Shown here in pieces: positions 32,133 through 40,282 of a DNA stretch of 64,000 nt (position 1 is the stretch's first letter; each line of letters starts with the position of its first letter). The position numbers and the translations under genes were made by a program. The DNA comes from Xanthomarina spongicola (GTDB lineage: Bacteria > Bacteroidota > Bacteroidia > Flavobacteriales > Flavobacteriaceae), in assembly GCF_003148645.1 (NCBI RefSeq), contig NZ_QGGP01000002.1:479525-543524 (forward strand). Direction: 5' to 3'. The notes beneath the pieces are model-generated. The model was not told where the DNA came from and searched no databases. It saw nothing but the letters and a program-made list of their open reading frames with translations.

Positions 32133-32169
32133 AAAAAAGGCATTAAAAGATATTTCTAATGCCTTTTTT
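32133..32169. terminator. Bidirectional intrinsic terminator (end of his operon)
   Basis: The arms 32133-32145 and 32157-32169 are a perfect 13-base inverted repeat (A-run plus GGCATTA against TAATGCC plus T-run). It serves both the plus-strand membrane gene and hisIE. Its right arm overlaps the last hisIE codons and stop. Confidence 0.85.
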
Positions 32170-32749
32170 TTAATTCATTTATAACATTTTGAAGTTTGAA
32201 TCCTTTTGCCTGGAGTAAAATTAAATAGTGAAACAGTAAATCTGCACATTCATTAATAAAAAAAGTATCATTATCATCTTTTGTTTCAATAACAACTTCT
32301 ACTGCCTCCTCTCCTACTTTTTGAGCTATTTTATTTATACCATCTTCAAACAAAGATGCCACATAAGAATCTTTTGAAGTAGAATTTTCTCTTCTATCTT
32401 TTATTATGTTTTCTAGCAGAAATAAAAAACCAAACGCTTCAATATTATTTTCATTCCAACAGGTGTCTGATCCTTTATGACAAATTGGTCCTTTTGGATT
32501 GACTTTAACAAGCAGTGTATCTTTATCACAATCTAATTTTATATCAACTAAAGTCAGATAATTTCCGCTTTCTTCCCCTTTTGTCCATAAACGTTGTTTA
32601 CTTCTGCTGTAAAAAGTTACTTTTTTAGTTTCATAGGTTTTGATTAATGCTGCCTCATTCATATAACCTAACATCAAAACATTTTTTGTTTGTGCATCTT
32701 GAATGATGGCTGGAACGAGTCCATTATTTTTTTTGTAGTCTATATTCAT
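32156..32749 (-). CDS. hisIE: Bifunctional phosphoribosyl-AMP cyclohydrolase / phosphoribosyl-ATP pyrophosphatase
   Basis: The 197-residue fused enzyme catalyses steps 2 and 3 of histidine synthesis. The N-terminal HisI domain shows M-L-G-Y-M-N-E-A-A-L, S-R-S-K-Q-R-L-W-T-K-G-E-E-S-G-N, and the zinc/magnesium cysteines in D-C-D-K-D-T and C-H-K-G-S-D-T-C-W. The C-terminal HisE domain (from about residue 108) has the acidic motif G-E-E-A-V-E-V-V-I-E. It is the last his gene, 46 bases after hisF. Confidence 0.96.
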   Translation of the reverse strand: MNIDYKKNNGLVPAIIQDAQTKNVLMLGYMNEAALIKTYETKKVTFYSRSKQRLWTKGEESGNYLTLVDIKLDCDKDTLLVKVNPKGPICHKGSDTCWNENNIEAFGFLFLLENIIKDRRENSTSKDSYVASLFEDGINKIAQKVGEEAVEVVIETKDDNDTFFINECADLLFHYLILLQAKGFKLQNVINELKKRH

Positions 32750-32795
32750 TTTTTTAATTATTATGTGAAGCTGAAATATGTTCAGAAAAACAACT

Positions 32796-33551
32796 TTAAA
32801 GTCGTACAGGAATATTTTTATTTTTTAGTTTATTCTTTACATCCTTAATTGTTATTTCACCAAAATGAAACACACTAGCAGCTAAGGCTGCATCAGATTT
32901 CCCTAAGGTAAAAGCATCTACAAAATGTTGAATTGTTCCTGCGCCACCTGAAGCAATAATTGGAATATTTAGTTCTTTGGAAAGTTTATTTAAGGCATGA
33001 TTGGCAAAGCCATTTTTAGTGCCATCATTATTCATTGATGTAAATAATATTTCTCCTGCACCACGTTTTTCAGCCTCTTTTGACCAATCGAATAAATCTA
33101 GTTCTGTTGGAATACTTCCTCCTGCAAGATGTACAATCCACCGACCATTTATAAGCTTTGCATCTATAGCTACTACAATACATTGACTGCCAAATTTACT
33201 AGATAATTCGTTAATTAAATCTGGCCGTTTTATTGCAGAAGAGTTAATGGATATTTTATCTGCACCACATTTTAAAAGTGCATCTACGTCTTCAATAGAT
33301 GTAATACCACCTCCAACAGTAAATGGAATATTTACTTGTTTAGCGACCTTCAAAACCATATCTAACATGGTTTTTCTACCTTCAAGTGTTGCTGAAATAT
33401 CTAAAAAAACAAGTTCGTCTGCGCCATTCTCAGCGTACATTTTAGCCAATTCTATTGGATTTCCGGCATCTCTTAAATCAATAAAATTTACTCCTTTTAC
33501 TGTCCGACCATCTTTAATATCTAAACATGGAATAATTCGTTTTGTAAGCAT
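32796..33551 (-). CDS. hisF: Imidazole glycerol phosphate synthase subunit HisF
   Basis: The 251-residue TIM barrel is the cyclase subunit of IGP synthase. The catalytic aspartates are visible in C-L-D-I-K-D-G-R (Asp11) and A-I-D-A-K (about 130). Phosphate-binding glycine loops appear as V-G-G-G-I and A-S-G-G-A-G. It uses ammonia delivered from HisH to form IGP and AICAR. Its start lies one base after the hisA stop on the minus strand. Confidence 0.97.
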
Positions 33552-33552
33552 T

Positions 33553-34284
33553 TTAAAAATGAGTTTCTAAATCCTTTAGTTTAATATTTCCTTCGTACAA
33601 AGCTTTTCCAATAATTACAGCTTCACAACCTATGTCTTCAAGCGAATTAATATCATCTATGCTAGAAACACCACCAGAAGCGATTAATTTAATTGATTGT
33701 CCGTTGCTATTAGAACAAGAATCAATAATGTTTTTATATAACTCGATTGAAGGACCTTCTAGCATTCCATCTTTAGAAATATCCGTACAAATAACATATT
33801 GAACACTCTTTTTTTGATAATTTTGGATAAATGGAATAACTTCTAGTGAGCTATATTCCTGCCAACCACTTATAGCTATTTTTCCATTCTTACAATCTGC
33901 TCCAAGAATTATTTTTGTTCCTCCATATTTTTCTAGCCAACCTACAAAAGTTTTTGAATTGCTAACAGCAGCACTACCTCCTGTAATTTGCTTGGCTCCA
34001 GAATTAAATGCAATATGCAGATCTTCGTCTTCTCTTATTCCACCGCCAAAATCAATTTTTAAATTGGTTTTTGAGGCTATTTGTTCCAACACTTTATAAT
34101 TAACAATTTTTTTTGCTTTTGCTCCATCTAAATCTACTAAATGTAAATACTGAATTCCAGCTGCTTCAAATTGTTTAGCCACTTCTATAGGACTTTCGTT
34201 ATATATTTTTTTTGTGCTGTAATCTCCTTTGGTTAGTCTAACGCACTTTCCGTCAATGATATCTATTGCTGGTATAATTCTCAT
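33553..34284 (-). CDS. hisA: Phosphoribosylformimino-5-aminoimidazole carboxamide ribotide isomerase
   Basis: The 243-residue TIM barrel performs the Amadori rearrangement of ProFAR to PRFAR. The general base Asp8 is in P-A-I-D-I-I-D-G-K, and the second aspartate is in [10 protein letters not shown]. Phosphate loops are D-F-G-G-G-I and A-S-G-G-V. It sits one base from hisH and hisF in the operon. Confidence 0.97.
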
Positions 34285-34285
34285 G

Positions 34286-34867
34286 TTATAATTCTAAAAA
34301 ATTCTTTAATAATTGCTCTCCAGCATAACTACTCTTTTCTGGATGAAATTGAACTCCATAAAAGTTGTTTTTTTGTAAAGCAGATGAATAGATTTGGTTG
34401 TAATTAGTAGTAGCTATTGCTTCTTTGCAGTTTTCTGCATAATAACTATGTACAAGATACATATATTCATTTTCAGAAATACCATTAAAAAGCTTAGATT
34501 TTAAATTAGTTATAGAATTCCATCCAATTTGTGGCACTTTTACCTGATTTGAAAATCGTTTTACAGAAACATTAAAGACTCCCAATCCATTTGTATTGCC
34601 TTCTTCAGTGTCGTTGCAAAGTAATTGCATTCCTAAACAAATTCCCAATACTGGTTGTGTAAGTTGTGGTATAATAATATCTAAACCACTTCCTTGAAGC
34701 ATTTTTATAGCGCTTTTTGCCTGACCTACTCCAGGAAAAATCACTTTATCTGCTTTTAATATTTCTTCTGGCTTATTAGATAAAATAGCATTCATACCTA
34801 AACGTTTAAATGCAAATTGAATGCTTTTAATGTTTCCTGCTCCATAATTTATAATTACAAGTTTCAT
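34286..34867 (-). CDS. hisH: Imidazole glycerol phosphate synthase subunit HisH (glutaminase)
   Basis: The 193-residue class I glutamine amidotransferase releases ammonia for HisF. The nucleophile is the Cys in V-L-G-I-C-L-G-M-Q, with His and Glu in V-Q-F-H-P-E-K-S. The N-terminal N-Y-G-A-G-N-I-K-S is the usual HisH start. A 57-base gap separates it from hisB, the largest gap among the first six genes of the operon. Confidence 0.97.
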
Positions 34868-34924
34868 ATATTTTTATTTTTGATACTCTCCTACAAACAC
34901 TAAGTGATATAATATTAATTGATT

Positions 34925-36058
34925 CTATAAAACACCTTTTGTTGATGGTAAAATCAATTTGTCCATATCGCGTTTTATTGCCATTTTAATAGCTTTTGCA
35001 AAAGCTTTAAAAATAGCTTCGATTTTATGGTGTTCATTAGTTCCTTCTGCTTTAATGTTTAAGTTGCATTTTGCGCCATCTGTAAAGGATTTAAAAAAGT
35101 GCATAAACATTTCAGTTGGCATTTTTCCTATCATTTCGCGATTAAATTCTGCATCCCAAACCAACCAGTTTCTGCCACCAAAATCAATGGCTACTTGTGC
35201 TAAACAATCGTCCATAGGTAAACTAAATCCATAGCGTTCAATACCTAATTTATCTCTTAATGTAGTTGCAAAAAGTTCACCTAAGGCAATCGCTGTATCT
35301 TCTATGGTATGGTGTTCATCCACTTCTAAATCACCAACAACTTTAATATCTAAATCTAATTGTCCGTGTCTAGCTATTTGATCTAACATATGATCGAAAA
35401 AGGCAATACCAGTATCTATGCTACTTTGTCCTTTTCCATCTAGGTTTAGATTGATTTTAATCTTAGTTTCATTAGTGTTTCTTTCAATTGAACCTGTTCT
35501 TACTTCTACTTTTAAAAAGGTATAAATCTTTTTCCAATCGTTGGTTTCTAAAGCAATAATACTATTTAACTCTTCGCGTTTAACGGTAATTTCATTTGTT
35601 CCTAGGTTGGTATTGTCATTAATAAAAATGCCCTTAGAACCTAAGTTTTTTGCTAATTCAACATCGGTTAATCGATCTCCTATAACGTATGAGTTTTTTA
35701 AATCATAATCTTCAGAAAAATATTGAATTAATAAACCTGTATTTGGTTTTCTAGTTGGAGCATTCTCATTAGCAAATGTTTTATCAATAAATTGCTCTTT
35801 AAACTCGATACCTTCTGCTTGAAATGTTTTAATGATAAAATTATGAACTGGCCAAAACGTGTTTTCAGGAAACGTATTTGTTCCTAAACCATCTTGATTG
35901 GTAACCATAACTATTTCGAAATCCAACTCTTTGGTTATCCTACTTAAATATTGAAATACATTTGGGTAAAACTCTACTTTATCGAATGAATCTATTTGCT
36001 CATCTGGTGTTTCTTTTATTAGTGTTCCATCTCTATCTATAAAAAGTACTTTCTTCAT
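34925..36058 (-). CDS. hisB: Bifunctional histidinol-phosphatase / imidazoleglycerol-phosphate dehydratase
   Basis: The 377-residue fusion has an N-terminal HAD phosphatase (nucleophile region F-I-D-R-D-G-T-L at residues 6-13) and a C-terminal dehydratase from about residue 188 with the metal-binding motifs F-F-D-H-M-L-D and D-E-H-H-T-I-E-D. The loop that in Escherichia coli HisB holds the zinc-binding Cys/His cluster reads [14 protein letters not shown] here and contains no cysteine. The phosphatase domain therefore appears to be a zinc-free variant. Start and stop overlap the neighbours by four bases on the hisC side. Confidence 0.96.
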
Positions 36059-37086
36059 TGTATGGCTTTTAAAGTGTTTATTAATCTTGTGTTTTCAGCT
36101 TTAGTTCCTAGGGTTAAACGCAAACAGTTTTTACAACCTAACTGATTGGTTCTATTGCGAATTACAATGCCTTTTTCTATGAATTGTTGATACCTAAAAT
36201 TTGCATCGTCTACTTTAACAAGTATGAAATTAGCATCTGAATGATAGATTTTAGATATAAAGGAAATGGCTTGTAATTCAATAATTAGATTCTCTCTTTC
36301 AGCTTTGATTTGTTGAATTTCAAAAGCTACTTCTTTTCTATTTTTTAATCTATCTAAAACCGACTGTTGTGTCAAACTATTCACATTATAAGGTGGTTTT
36401 ATTTTATTCAACACTGAAATAATTTCTGTTGATGCGTAACCAATTCCCAATCTAATTCCAGCCAGACCATAAGCCTTTGAAAAGGTTTGTGTAATGATTA
36501 GGTTTGGGAACTCATCTAACTTATTTAACCAGCTTTTCTGTTCCGAAAAATCTATATAGGCTTCATCTAAAACGACAATTCCTTGAAAATTTTTAAGTAA
36601 TTTTTCAACATCAGAAACTGCAAAACAATTACCAGACGGATTATTTGGTGAGCATAAAAACAAAATTTTTGCGTTTGTGACCTCCAATATTTTGTCTATT
36701 CGAGGCTGAAAAGTGTTAGATAAAGGCACTTCTACAACTTCAACAGCATTAATATTCGCTAACACTTGATACATACCATAAGTTGGTGGTAAGGTTATAA
36801 CCCTATCTTTATTTGGTTCGCAAAAAGCGCGAAATATTAAATCGAGTATTTCATCACTTCCATTCCCTAAAAGCATGTTATTAGTAGAGAGGTTTTTAAT
36901 TTTTGAAAGTTCAGATTTTACTTGAGATTGCTGAGGATCTGGATAACGATTCACACCATTATCAAACGGATTCTCATTGGCGTCTAAAAACAGCTTGTTG
37001 TTTAAACCATCCTGATATTCATCTCTTGCAGATGCATAAGGTTTCAATTCTTTTACGTTATTTCTTACTAGCTCTAAAATCTTCAT
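36055..37086 (-). CDS. hisC: Histidinol-phosphate aminotransferase
   Basis: The 343-residue class I/II PLP aminotransferase converts imidazole acetol phosphate to histidinol phosphate. The PLP lysine is in [14 protein letters not shown], with N-P-D/N-N-P-S-G-N and D-E-A-Y-I-D-F upstream. It overlaps hisD and hisB by four bases each (ATGA type), so the three are translationally coupled. Confidence 0.97.
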
Positions 37087-38369
37087 GATAACAAGTCTTT
37101 TAATCTTATTGAAACGGCATTTTTATGAGCTTGTAAGCCTTCAGCTTCTGCCATTAATTCAATTGTTTTGCCAATGTTTTTTAAACCTATCTTTGATATC
37201 TTTTGAAAGGTGATACTCTTAGTAAAACTATCTAGATTTACTCCTGAGTATGCTTTACTAAATCCGTTTGTTGGCAATGTGTGATTGGTTCCAGACGCAT
37301 AATCGCCAGCACTTTCTGGTGTGTAATTCCCAATAAAAACAGAGCCTGCATTTTTAAGATTATCCTTATAATAATCTTCGTTTTCTGTACTAATAATGAA
37401 GTGCTCTGGAGCATAATCGTTAATTAAATCCATAGCATCAGCCTTATCTTCTATAAAAATAAATTTGGAATTGGAAATGGCCTCTTCTGCAATCTCTTTC
37501 CTTGGCAACTCTTTAAGTTGTTTTACTATTTCAACCTCTACTTGGCTAATAAGGTTTTTTGAAGTTGACACCAAAATTACTTGACTATCTAAACCATGTT
37601 CAGCTTGACTTAACAAATCTGATGCTACATAGCTTGCATTAGCAGAATCATCTGCTACTACTAATAATTCGCTTGGTCCTGCAGGCATATCGATAGCTAC
37701 TCCAAATTTTGTGGCCAATTGCTTTGCTACAGTTACAAACTGGTTTCCTGGTCCAAATATTTTATAGACTTGAGGTATGGATTTAGTTCCAAAAGTTAAA
37801 CCTGCAATAGCTTGAATACCTCCTACTTTAAAAATCTTTGTTACACCACAAAGTTTGGCTGTGTATAGAATTTCGTTTGCAATCTTACCTTCATTATTTG
37901 GTGGCGTACATAACACGATTTCTTTGCAACCTGCAATTTTAGATGGAACTACCAACATTAATACAGTTGAAAACAAAGGAGCAGTACCTCCAGGAATATA
38001 CAACCCAATTTTTTCTATAGGTCTTTTTTCTTGCCAACAAATAACCCCTTTTGATGTTTCAACTTTTACTTTATCTGTTTTTTGAGCTTGGTGAAATTTT
38101 TCAATATTTGATTTAGCAAGTTTAATAGCACTTTTCAATTCATTTGAAACTAGATTTGAAGCCATTTCAATTTCTTCGGCAGAAACAATATTAGATTGCA
38201 AAGTTACACCATCAAAAAGTTCGGTGTATTTGCTAATAGCATCATTTCCATGTCGCTTTACATCTTCAAAAATTTGATTAACTGTAGACTCAATATTTTT
38301 AACTTTTTGTGTTGGCCTTTGCAATAAGGATGACCAATCTTCTCTTTTAGGATTTATAATTGTTTTCAT
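37083..38369 (-). CDS. hisD: Histidinol dehydrogenase
   Basis: The 428-residue enzyme performs the last two oxidations to histidine using NAD and zinc. Visible signatures are Y-I-P-G-G-T-A-P-L-F-S-T-V and G-P-G-N-Q-F-V-T-V-A-K. Zinc and catalytic residues appear in S-Q-A-E-H-G, A-P-E-H and G-D-Y-A-S-G-T-N-H. It overlaps hisG by four bases. Confidence 0.97.
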   Translation of the reverse strand: MKTIINPKREDWSSLLQRPTQKVKNIESTVNQIFEDVKRHGNDAISKYTELFDGVTLQSNIVSAEEIEMASNLVSNELKSAIKLAKSNIEKFHQAQKTDKVKVETSKGVICWQEKRPIEKIGLYIPGGTAPLFSTVLMLVVPSKIAGCKEIVLCTPPNNEGKIANEILYTAKLCGVTKIFKVGGIQAIAGLTFGTKSIPQVYKIFGPGNQFVTVAKQLATKFGVAIDMPAGPSELLVVADDSANASYVASDLLSQAEHGLDSQVILVSTSKNLISQVEVEIVKQLKELPRKEIAEEAISNSKFIFIEDKADAMDLINDYAPEHFIISTENEDYYKDNLKNAGSVFIGNYTPESAGDYASGTNHTLPTNGFSKAYSGVNLDSFTKSITFQKISKIGLKNIGKTIELMAEAEGLQAHKNAVSIRLKDLLS

Positions 38370-39223
38370 ATTACCATATTTTCAATTGGGCCCACTAGTA
38401 TTCCTTGGGCACCTTGTAGTTTTAATTCATCAATAATTTCCCAAAAATCGTTTTTGTTGATGACTGAATGTAAAGAACTCCAACCCTCTTCTGCTAGAGG
38501 TAAAATTGTTGGACTCTTCATTCCAGGGAGCACTTTAATAATATCTGGAATTCTATCATTAGGAGCATTTAAAAGAACATATTTTGATTGTCTTCCTTTT
38601 AAAACCGATTGAAACCGAAATTTCAATTTGCTCAATATAATCTGGTTTTTAGGAAAAATTAATGGTGACACGGCTAAAACAGCTTCGGAATGCAAAAGCA
38701 CTTCAACTTCTTTTAAGTTGTTTTTAAATAAGGTACTTCCACTAGATACAATGTCTACAATAGCATCTGCTAAACCAATATTTGGAGCAATTTCTACAGA
38801 ACCGTTTATGATATGAAGGTTCGCATCAATCTTATTTTCATCCAAAAACCGATTGACTGTATTTGGATATGACGTAGCAATGCGCTTACCTTGTAAATCC
38901 TGAATAGATTTATATTTTGTAGATTTTGGAACTGCTATTGAAACTTTACAGCTAGAGAAACCTAATTTTTCTGCAATTGAAATATCATTTCCTTTCTCAA
39001 TTAATACATTTTCTCCAATAATGGCAGCATCTACAACACCATCTCTTAGATATTGAGGAATGTCTCCATTTCGTAAATAGAAAACTTCAATAGGAAAATT
39101 TTTAGCTGAAGCTTTTAGTTGGCCTCTACCATTATCTATTGAAATTCCTACATCTTTTAGGAGTTTCATGGAGTCGTCGTGAAGACGACCAGATTTTTGA
39201 ACGGCAATTTTTAATTTACTCAT
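38366..39223 (-). CDS. hisG: ATP phosphoribosyltransferase (long form)
   Basis: The 285-residue protein is the long, hexameric HisG with a C-terminal ACT-like regulatory domain (about residues 215-285) for histidine feedback inhibition. The catalytic part shows K-L-K-I-A-V-Q-K-S-G-R-L, G-D-I-P-Q-Y-L-R-D-G and the PRPP loop I-V-D-I-V-S-S-G-S-T-L. It commits ATP and PRPP to the pathway and is the first structural gene after the attenuator at 39284-39401. Confidence 0.97.
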   Translation of the reverse strand: MSKLKIAVQKSGRLHDDSMKLLKDVGISIDNGRGQLKASAKNFPIEVFYLRNGDIPQYLRDGVVDAAIIGENVLIEKGNDISIAEKLGFSSCKVSIAVPKSTKYKSIQDLQGKRIATSYPNTVNRFLDENKIDANLHIINGSVEIAPNIGLADAIVDIVSSGSTLFKNNLKEVEVLLHSEAVLAVSPLIFPKNQIILSKLKFRFQSVLKGRQSKYVLLNAPNDRIPDIIKVLPGMKSPTILPLAEEGWSSLHSVINKNDFWEIIDELKLQGAQGILVGPIENMVI

Positions 39224-39283: not shown

Positions 39284-39316
39284 AAAAACCCGTTTGATCT
39301 ACTCAAACGGGTTTTT
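39284..39316 (-). terminator. his operon attenuator terminator
   Basis: On the minus strand the arms 39316-39303 and 39297-39284 form a perfect 14-base stem (AAAAACCCGTTTGA and TCAAACGGGTTTTT) with a 5-base loop, followed by more T residues. It lies between the leader peptide and hisG, 60 bases before hisG, so it stops transcription before the operon. Its 5-prime arm overlaps the antiterminator partner (39309-39301). Confidence 0.9.
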
Positions 39317-39396
39317 AAATATGTTGATTTTATTCAATACATTTTCAGCTCGCTTGAGTGCCAGAATGAAAATGATGATGATGTAATTGAATAAAA
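39301..39396 (-). promoter_or_regulatory. his attenuator: competing RNA pairings
   Basis: Three pairings can be read. (1) The terminator stem at 39316-39284. (2) An antiterminator: ACTCAAGCG (39359-39351, exactly leader codons 15-17) pairs with CGTTTGAGT (39309-39301) over nine bases with one G-U, which destroys the terminator 5-prime arm. (3) A perfect 11-base pairing of 39396-39386 (leader codons 2-6) with 39338-39328 beyond the leader stop. A ribosome stalled on the His codons would leave (2) free and open (3). A ribosome reaching the stop codon would mask ACTCAAGCG and allow (1). Confidence 0.8.
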
Positions 39397-39401
39397 GCCA
39401 T
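39345..39401 (-). CDS. hisL: his operon leader peptide
   Basis: An ATG at 39401-39399 opens an 18-codon frame ending in TGA (39347-39345): MAFIQLHHHHFHSGTQAS. Five of its 18 codons are CAT, four of them consecutive (codons 7-10 and 12). It precedes the terminator by 28 bases and hisG by 121 bases. Such a run of His codons ahead of a his operon is the hallmark of ribosome-mediated attenuation. It is too short for ordinary gene finders. Confidence 0.9.
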   Translation of the reverse strand: MAFIQLHHHHFHSGTQAS

Positions 39402-39419: not shown

Positions 39420-39445
39420 CAAATATTGTAAATAATTAATTACAA
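39420..39445 (-). promoter_or_regulatory. Weak candidate his promoter
   Basis: The minus strand has TTG (39445-39443) and AATATTTG (39427-39420, one mismatch to TAnnTTTG) separated by 15 bases, about 18 bases upstream of the leader peptide start. The spacing is shorter than usual, so this is tentative. Confidence 0.3.
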
Positions 39446-39466
39446 TTCCTAAATAAATATTATTTT

Positions 39467-40282
39467 TTATTGATTACCTAGTATTAAAGGCATTCCAGAG
39501 TCTCCAGAACCAATAACAATTACCTTAGTATTAGGAGATTCAGATAATTTAATGGTAGCGTCAATACCTTTATCTTGTAAGATTTTATCTGTAAGGGAAG
39601 CACTTAAAATTCTGTTTGATTCTGCTTTACCTTCAGCTTCTATAATTACTTTTTCAGCTTCTTTAGCTGCTGTAACTAGTCTAAACTCATATTCTAAAGA
39701 TTCCTGCTCTTGCTTTAACTTACGTTCAATTGCGTCTTTAATAGTTGGTGGTAACGTAACATCTCTAACTAAAACTTCGTTTAACTGAATGTATTGATCT
39801 TCAACAATATTTTTAGTTTCTTCAAAAATCTCTTGTTGTATTGCATCTCGTTTACTAGAATATAATTGCTCTGGTGTATAACGACCTACAACACTTCTAG
39901 CTGCAGAACGAATGGCTGGTAACAGAACACGCTCTTTATACATTTCACTTTTCTCTTGGTGCAATTTCCCTAAGCTATTAAAATCTGGCTGAAACCAAAT
40001 TGATGCTTCTAATTTAATATCTAAACCATTAGAAGATAATACATTCATTTTTTCAAGAATCTCTTGTTGTCTCACTTCGTATACAAACACTTTGTTCCAA
40101 GGAGCAACAATATGAAACCCCTCGCCTAATGGAGGCGCATCTGTAACCACACCATTATCGAAGGTTTTATATAATACACCAGCTTCTCCAGAGCCAATAG
40201 TTACAGCAGATTTTGCTAATAAAATAATTAGTACAATTGCAATTATAATTGTTGGCAATGCTATTTTAGGTAATTTTTCCAT
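39467..40282 (-). CDS. Prohibitin family (SPFH/Band 7) membrane protein
   Basis: The 271-residue protein has one N-terminal membrane helix (about residues 8-28) followed by an SPFH domain (G-E-A-G-V-L-Y-K-T-F-D-N-G-V, later R-S-A-A-R-S-V-V-G-R-Y-T-P-E-Q-L-Y) and a helical C-terminal part rich in Glu/Ala/Lys. Prohibitin-like proteins form large rings that organise membrane proteins and proteases such as FtsH. Its direct partner is unknown. It lies nine bases after the VWA-type gene on the minus strand and is followed by the his leader. Confidence 0.92.
   Translation of the reverse strand: MEKLPKIALPTIIIAIVLIILLAKSAVTIGSGEAGVLYKTFDNGVVTDAPPLGEGFHIVAPWNKVFVYEVRQQEILEKMNVLSSNGLDIKLEASIWFQPDFNSLGKLHQEKSEMYKERVLLPAIRSAARSVVGRYTPEQLYSSKRDAIQQEIFEETKNIVEDQYIQLNEVLVRDVTLPPTIKDAIERKLKQEQESLEYEFRLVTAAKEAEKVIIEAEGKAESNRILSASLTDKILQDKGIDATIKLSESPNTKVIVIGSGDSGMPLILGNQ

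Follow-up and report, generated by a model that had tools for sequence, protein, structure and literature searches.

We conclude with high confidence that the element in front of hisG in Xanthomarina spongicola is a ribosome-mediated attenuator of his operon transcription. It lies in a stretch of 64,000 nucleotides of genomic DNA, referred to throughout as the window. Its parts are conserved and covary among related genomes, and in a folding model the choice between alternative structures depends on where the ribosome stands; leader translation, ribosome stalling, termination and control by histidine are what the sequence predicts. Three features that mark an attenuator are found at the locus, namely a short open reading frame (ORF) rich in codons for the end product, a terminator, as recognised from sequence only, between this leader and the first structural gene, and an antiterminator that excludes the terminator.

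Anatomy and predicted action of the his leader

Leader and terminator sit between the end of the upstream gene (39467) and hisG (Table 1), and the remainder of the operon continues downstream of hisG on the same strand over 32156-38369 in the order hisD-hisC-hisB-hisH-hisA-hisF-hisIE. The initial annotation had described a His-rich leader with five His codons before hisG, a perfect 11-base pairing of leader codons 2-6 with a segment past the leader stop, and a perfect 14-base terminator with a T-run, and all three were borne out on direct reading of the sequence. The His codons are codons 7-10 (39383-39372) and codon 12 (39368-39366). It had also paired codons 15-17 over nine bases with the terminator 5′ arm; the nine pairs are there, one of them G-U, but the last two bases of the partner lie in the terminator loop. 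Beyond the helices of that first reading we see two more in the protector, P1b and P1c, the latter tying up part of the antiterminator strand (4/6 P1c positions are paired in the window). The leader RNA as a whole (135 nt) gives a folding energy of −39.6 kcal/mol, compared to −18.1 ± 3.3 kcal/mol in shuffled sequences (z −6.6).

Table 1 Features of the his leader and its surroundings in the window.
Feature	Position	Strand	Details	Basis
Upstream gene	39467-40282	minus	same strand as leader	weak HflK/HflC-like matches below cut-off
Candidate promoter	39420-39449	minus	GGAATTGTAA 39449-39440 and CAATATTTG 39428-39420	sequence
Leader ORF	39401-39345	minus	MAFIQLHHHHFHSGTQAS*; 18 codons	sequence read directly
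Protector P1a, 5′ strand	39386-39396	minus	TTTTATTCAAT, codons 2-6	11/11 pairs with 39338-39328
Protector P1b, 5′ strand	39367-39374	minus	end of His run, Phe and His codons (codons 10-12)	pairs with 39347-39340
Protector apical helix P1c	39348-39365	minus	codons 13-14 with 17-18	overlaps antiterminator strand
Antiterminator, 5′ strand	39351-39359	minus	ACTCAAGCG, codons 15-17	pairs with 39309-39301
Protector P1b, 3′ strand	39340-39347	minus	TGAAAATG, includes leader stop codon	pairs with 39374-39367
Protector P1a, 3′ strand	39328-39338	minus	ATTGAATAAAA, beyond leader stop	pairs 11/11 with 39396-39386
Intrinsic terminator	39316-39284	minus	14 pairs (5 G-C), 5-base loop; T-rich tail to 39277	terminator scan and sequence
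Antiterminator, 3′ strand	39301-39309	minus	CGTTTGAGT	common to terminator 5′ arm and loop
hisG, first structural gene	38366-39223	minus		TIGR00070 match over cut-off
hisD	37083-38369	minus		over cut-off of its NCBIfam model
hisC	36055-37086	minus		over cut-off of its NCBIfam model
hisB (bifunctional)	34925-36058	minus		over cut-off of its NCBIfam model
hisH	34286-34867	minus		over cut-off of its NCBIfam model
hisA	33553-34284	minus		over cut-off of its NCBIfam model
hisF	32796-33551	minus		over cut-off of its NCBIfam model
hisIE	32156-32749	minus		over cut-off of its NCBIfam model

With this anatomy, RNA polymerase would transcribe a short A-rich 5′ UTR and then the 18-codon His-rich leader. 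When histidyl-tRNA is scarce, a ribosome would stall at His codons 7-10, where it covers the 5′ strand of the protector and leaves codons 15-17 free; these could pair with the emerging 5′ arm of the terminator before the 3′ arm is made, and polymerase would continue into hisG. When histidyl-tRNA is ample, the ribosome would reach the stop codon and cover codons 15-17, allowing the terminator to form and transcription to stop. If no ribosome is present, the protector hairpin would tie up codons 15-17 and termination would be the default. As a duplex the terminator is calculated to be the more stable of the two (−18.2 vs −10.6 kcal/mol for the antiterminator), so antitermination must be kinetic, that is, determined by the order of synthesis, and needs the polymerase and the ribosome to be paced. 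Classical attenuators act by order of synthesis.

Folding with ribosome masks, which the initial annotation had put forward as a check, was performed on the transcript exposed up to the terminator loop, with the ribosome footprint masked at each codon in turn. For the window sequence, the model gives the antiterminator core a probability of 1.00 when any of His codons 7-10 occupies the A site. The value is 0.01 when His 12 is there, and 0.00 both at the stop codon and in the absence of a ribosome. Across the family, the modelled antiterminator exceeds a probability of 0.5 in 80/80 sequences when the first His of the run is in the A site, and in 0/80 at the stop codon, a zero that, like the value for the window, follows from masking the arm. 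The result for the first His stays at 80/80 for footprint edges from +11 to +17, while the effect of a stall at His 12 hinges on the edge (0.96-1.00 at +11 and +13, 0.01-0.15 at +15). With no ribosome, 26/80 sequences are above 0.5, which indicates that default termination in the absence of translation is, in this model, not universal among the relatives.

The 5′ UTR of the leader is short and A-rich, without a Shine-Dalgarno sequence, and an AGGA/GGAG/GAGG motif occurs at −20 to −4 in just 1/80 leaders. For the leader, this agrees with the remark in the initial annotation that the group mostly starts translation without Shine-Dalgarno sequences, and with the accessible part of a published account of Bacteroidetes members that lack them (PMC6847099). 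Upstream, a block resembling TTTGGAWTTGTAA..AAT[AC]TTTGT recurs, as judged by eye, in most of 30 upstream regions inspected out of 80, L027 being one of those that lack it. As exact TAnnTTTG is present in only 9/80 upstream regions, the promoter is listed as a candidate. A sigma-70 scan returned 34 promoter-like sites compared to 40.8 in shuffles, which is fewer than expected by chance.

Conservation and covariation within the family

A set of 80 hisG loci was fetched by protein similarity, from Flavobacteriaceae genera or from Bacteroidetes/Flavobacteriaceae isolates; L052 has no upstream sequence and was left out of the family counts, leaving 79 related loci. A His-rich leader precedes hisG in 79/79 of these, compared to a mean of 0.98 and a maximum of 4/79 in 40 dinucleotide shuffles of the upstream regions, and this excludes a chance pattern. 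The reverse strand of the same regions holds no His-rich leader. All 79 leaders have an ATG start, 15-18 codons and clustered His codons, and are followed by the terminator arm CCGTTTGA. His is the only one of the 20 amino acids to be clearly enriched in mini-ORFs before hisG. L003 departs from the common form: TAA replaces a CAA codon, so the leader ends three codons early, inside the antiterminator strand, and the pairing is kept there as G-U. In two relatives, L092 and L161, the RNA parts upstream of hisG are kept and most His codons are lost, one and two being left in MTFIQNYHRFYNCSQAI and MINSSAHHRFYTIAQAR, respectively; with these two, nature itself has varied the number of His codons and so tests the number required.

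Structure statistics were taken from an alignment of 80 leaders, and co-steps were counted on a tree of hisG DNA from one FastTree run, which carries no support values. Applied to the whole set of 80, RNAalifold returned the terminator only, and the other helices were seen by naming them and counting pairs. Of the alignment cells counted, 99.5% (of 880) are paired for the terminator core, 94.7% (of 720) for the antiterminator and 86.5% (of 2000) for the protector (P1a, P1b and P1c together). All three are above their shuffled and slid controls, the shuffled protector reaching 82.2%; the comparison with slid versions is tilted towards these helices, which were derived from the window. The protector has a covariation score of 0.151; the shuffled value is 0.081, and no slid version exceeds 0.083. 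Columns 41/56 of P1c are CG in 38 leaders, UA in 38, UG in three and AU in one, with 0 of 80 unpaired and 5 co-steps on the tree; columns 36/61 of P1b, which join the third base of the Phe codon to the stop codon, are UA in 66, CG in six, UG in one and unpaired in seven, again with 5 co-steps. There are 4 co-steps each at columns 37/59 and at the terminator columns 103/126. The protector has weak spots, in that 9/79 is unpaired in 38 of 80 leaders, 19/68 in 25, and 40/57, the outermost P1c pair, in 72. Overall, covariation within the family supports the predicted protector and terminator.

These pairings also bear on whether the ORF is there for its product, a genuine small protein rich in His (a metal-binding one, for example), with an ordinary terminator behind it. 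The ORF is indeed conserved in the family, down to a C-terminal QA motif. However, the QA codons are themselves the antiterminator strand. Covariation links the stop codon to a synonymous base of the Phe codon, amino-acid exchanges in the peptide (Thr/Ile and Ser/Lys/Asn) track the base pairing, and in loci beyond the family a different terminator sequence goes with a different C-terminus. We therefore regard a small protein as extremely unlikely, and an attenuator leader as the reading that these patterns fit.

Within the family the antiterminator core is nearly invariant and so says little, except through an asymmetry between the two arms of the terminator. The terminator 5′ arm CCGTTTGA is the same in 80/80 leaders while its partner in the terminator varies; at column 107 the 5′ arm base takes 0 steps on the hisG tree and its 3′ terminator partner 22, as expected of a strand that has two partners. 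Only 2 co-steps fall on each of the two antiterminator pairs that vary most, and the outer pair 46/113 is unpaired in 27/80. Between families there is more to compare. The arm CGTCTG occurs only with the leader core CAG (6/6 loci), and CGTTTG occurs with CAA in 77 loci and with CAG in 21. The non-pairing combination of CAA with CGTCTG was not seen in an inter-family search able to find it, a search that knew this sequence type alone and gave no result for 135/239 loci, 10 of them family loci. These data support compensation of the predicted antiterminator core between families.

The terminator itself could merely end the gene upstream, with no regulation and with the leader incidental. That gene does end on the same strand, and from there to the leader a consensus scan finds nothing else that looks like a terminator. 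Against this, the leader is accompanied by the terminator in front of hisG in 79 related loci, the linkage extends to other orders with other terminator sequences, and a promoter-like block, seen by eye, lies between the gene and the leader; an unregulated terminator is very unlikely. The stems of two family terminators, in L034 and L056, are interrupted, and for this reason the scan missed both.

The alignment upstream of hisG across Flavobacteriaceae that the initial annotation had suggested shows both a conserved His-rich leader and covarying helices. The mutually exclusive switch described there, here read as a three-state attenuator, is supported by parts conserved in 80 leaders, by covariation and, in the model, by the mask folds.

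Range across order, class and phylum

A covariance model (CM) was built from the leader and searched in the same genome and in genomes of the order. In its own genome, the window leader is the sole match below 1e-4 (E 3e-26). The other six matches are weak: L083 comes from the his leader read on its opposite strand, L082 is next to an ORF resembling ribosomal protein L21, and L084-L087 are without hisG. In the order, 123/296 genomes have matches at E <= 0.01, which is not a count of his leaders, since the weak matches are not all his leaders, as seen from L165, one of 20 order-level CM loci, where there is no hisG match. His leaders were found in 28/29 and 18/19 of the order loci, which were chosen by CM score. 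As these were picked in that way and the family loci by hisG similarity, a test of conservation in which the leader had no part in the choice is provided by the class and phylum sets alone.

In the class, hisG is over cut-off in 86/198 genomes, and 70 of the 80 hisG loci from genomes of the same class and other orders, sampled by hisG alone, were read. An ATG-initiated His-rich mini-ORF lies within 260 bases before hisG in 58/70 of these loci outside the order, compared to 0.8 in shuffles and 4 on the reverse strand. Of the 12 misses, two (L134 and L137) have a His-rich mini-ORF with a GTG start, and in three (L124, L169 and L196) hisG seems to follow a coding sequence directly. A terminator was detected for 42/58 leaders, the scan detecting none for 16. 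These 42 terminators differ in sequence from the family type, with GGCTT[AG]CC in 21, and L167, L170 and L200 are close to the Flavobacteriaceae type. The leader end is complementary to the terminator 5′ arm at z < −1.5 in 32/42 loci vs a nominal 2.8. Leaders without a detected terminator were dropped from the pairing counts (2 family, 8 order, 16 class and 14 phylum), and these counts do not take in the set L088-L116. The putative his attenuator is widespread in Bacteroidia, a class of elements rather than an isolated case.

The phylum set comprises 28 loci from the search and 20 picked by hand. Six loci with no usable hisG start (L236, L237, L239, L240, L241 and L253) were dropped before leaders were counted, as was L165. 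Among the 42 usable loci, two of which belong to the same class (L232, without a leader, and L233, with one), a His-rich leader is found in 22 and is lacking in 20, including the sole usable locus of family f87. A terminator was detected behind 8/22 leaders, and 7 of those 8 show pairing with the leader end. Judged by these sequences, the His-leader principle is widespread in Bacteroidota and not universal. We lean towards His-leader attenuation as the ancestral mode of his control in Bacteroidota as a whole, lost or lacking in some lineages, and as having evolved under a design rule of its own, with an antiterminator strand in the last leader codons that is re-matched as the terminator changes. 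If this is true, there would be a functional coupling of RNA polymerase to ribosomes in a phylum whose translation begins without Shine-Dalgarno pairing. As a conserved and testable reporter, the leader, itself to be translated without Shine-Dalgarno, could show how transcription is coupled to translation and how amino acids are sensed in Bacteroidota, and it is a candidate explanation of his operon control in a phylum that is major among gut and marine bacteria.

A leader very like the Flavobacteriaceae type, MNLLQLHHHRHHHTCSQARW, precedes hisG at L254, in a distant family of another class of the same phylum. It is perhaps a case of transfer or convergence.

Relation to known systems and other candidate attenuators

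Ribosome-mediated his attenuation is textbook knowledge for Proteobacteria. The leader described here resembles the proteobacterial his leader (RF00514) in having a leader peptide with His codons, a terminator and an antiterminator, and in preceding the same operon. It differs in that there is a single antiterminator helix, with its 5′ strand inside the last leader codons and enclosed by the protector, where the proteobacterial leader has more alternating segments. With the three-state attenuator of the E. coli trp type it shares the protector, antiterminator and terminator, and the block of the antiterminator by a ribosome at the stop codon; the blocked strand lies just beyond the stop codon in the trp type and is coding sequence (codons 15-17) here. 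A 2010 comparative study of attenuation in bacteria by Lopatovskaya and colleagues may cover Bacteroidetes.

Neither a T-box nor any other Rfam family attains its gathering score in the window, and no leader family does so in 20 further loci. The best sub-threshold Rfam match of the region is RF00514 His_leader, at 32.3 bits vs a gathering score of 49 (E 0.0008); this is weak evidence, because the same stretch gives 24-30 bits with other families that contain a terminator. The leader would supply a family that is absent from Rfam. Control through translation of hisG, or through another ligand sensed by a T-box or a protein with the leader as a helper only, would be a further way to read the element, with nothing specific in its favour. 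The lack of any such Rfam match speaks against it, as does the hairpin, which is shaped like a terminator and whose end lies some 60 bases ahead of the hisG start, and we consider it exceedingly improbable compared to attenuation by a translating ribosome.

A 2021 transcriptome study of Flavobacterium psychrophilum reports, in its accessible part, a structured 5′ element at hisG that is present in other Flavobacteriaceae genera and has no Rfam hit, and strong clues for leader-peptide attenuation of amino-acid operons (PMC9723704). That element has the gene, the family and the lack of an Rfam hit in common with ours and, going by what is accessible of the account, is very probably the same; the anatomy, covariation and range given here go beyond that part of it. 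Bacteroid-trp RNA (RF01692), described in the accessible text as a candidate cis-regulatory RNA in Bacteroidetes (PMC2864571), differs, as judged by its name, in belonging to another operon, and has no match at gathering score in the window or at the trpE locus L255 of the same genome. In Bacteroides thetaiotaomicron, leader-peptide-like sORFs are reported in long 5′ UTRs generally, as far as the accessible text goes (PMC7366714). Our literature search, with most subscription papers outside its reach, found no account of this leader anatomy. In short, his attenuation is known as a principle, has been partly noticed in print for this family, and is poorly documented in the phylum, through which it is traced here.

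Other biosynthetic loci in the same genome carry leaders of a similar kind. At L259:4156-4479, on the minus strand, three leader modules lie in a row before an ilvE-type gene (L259:3171-4127) and ilvD, with the Ile-rich ORFs MKSFTIIPSIIIADVIITSAEGVV, MTTNIIIISIIICFTE and MTTHTNIIIISIIICPSG. The first is followed by a GCCTCC..GGAGGC hairpin with a T-run, as seen by eye, and each of the last two by a near-identical terminator, aagcctttctca..tgagaaaggctt; the modules are a candidate for a tandem Ile attenuator acting in series. The aspartokinase locus L260 has no such amino-acid-rich leader with a terminator. Before a trpE-like gene, the Trp leader MKLNLNHTWWWCFRNSNS and a terminator form a candidate attenuator at L255:1327-1445 (G000:C5), where Rfam calls none of its families. 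The leader MKATSNFAYYNWYYFFFNRRNETLYM, with runs of Tyr and Phe and a strong terminator, precedes a prephenate dehydratase gene at L258:1317-1465 (G000:C1) and is likely a Phe/Tyr attenuator. With candidate Trp, Phe/Tyr and triple Ile attenuators in the same genome, leader-peptide control looks general in this organism.
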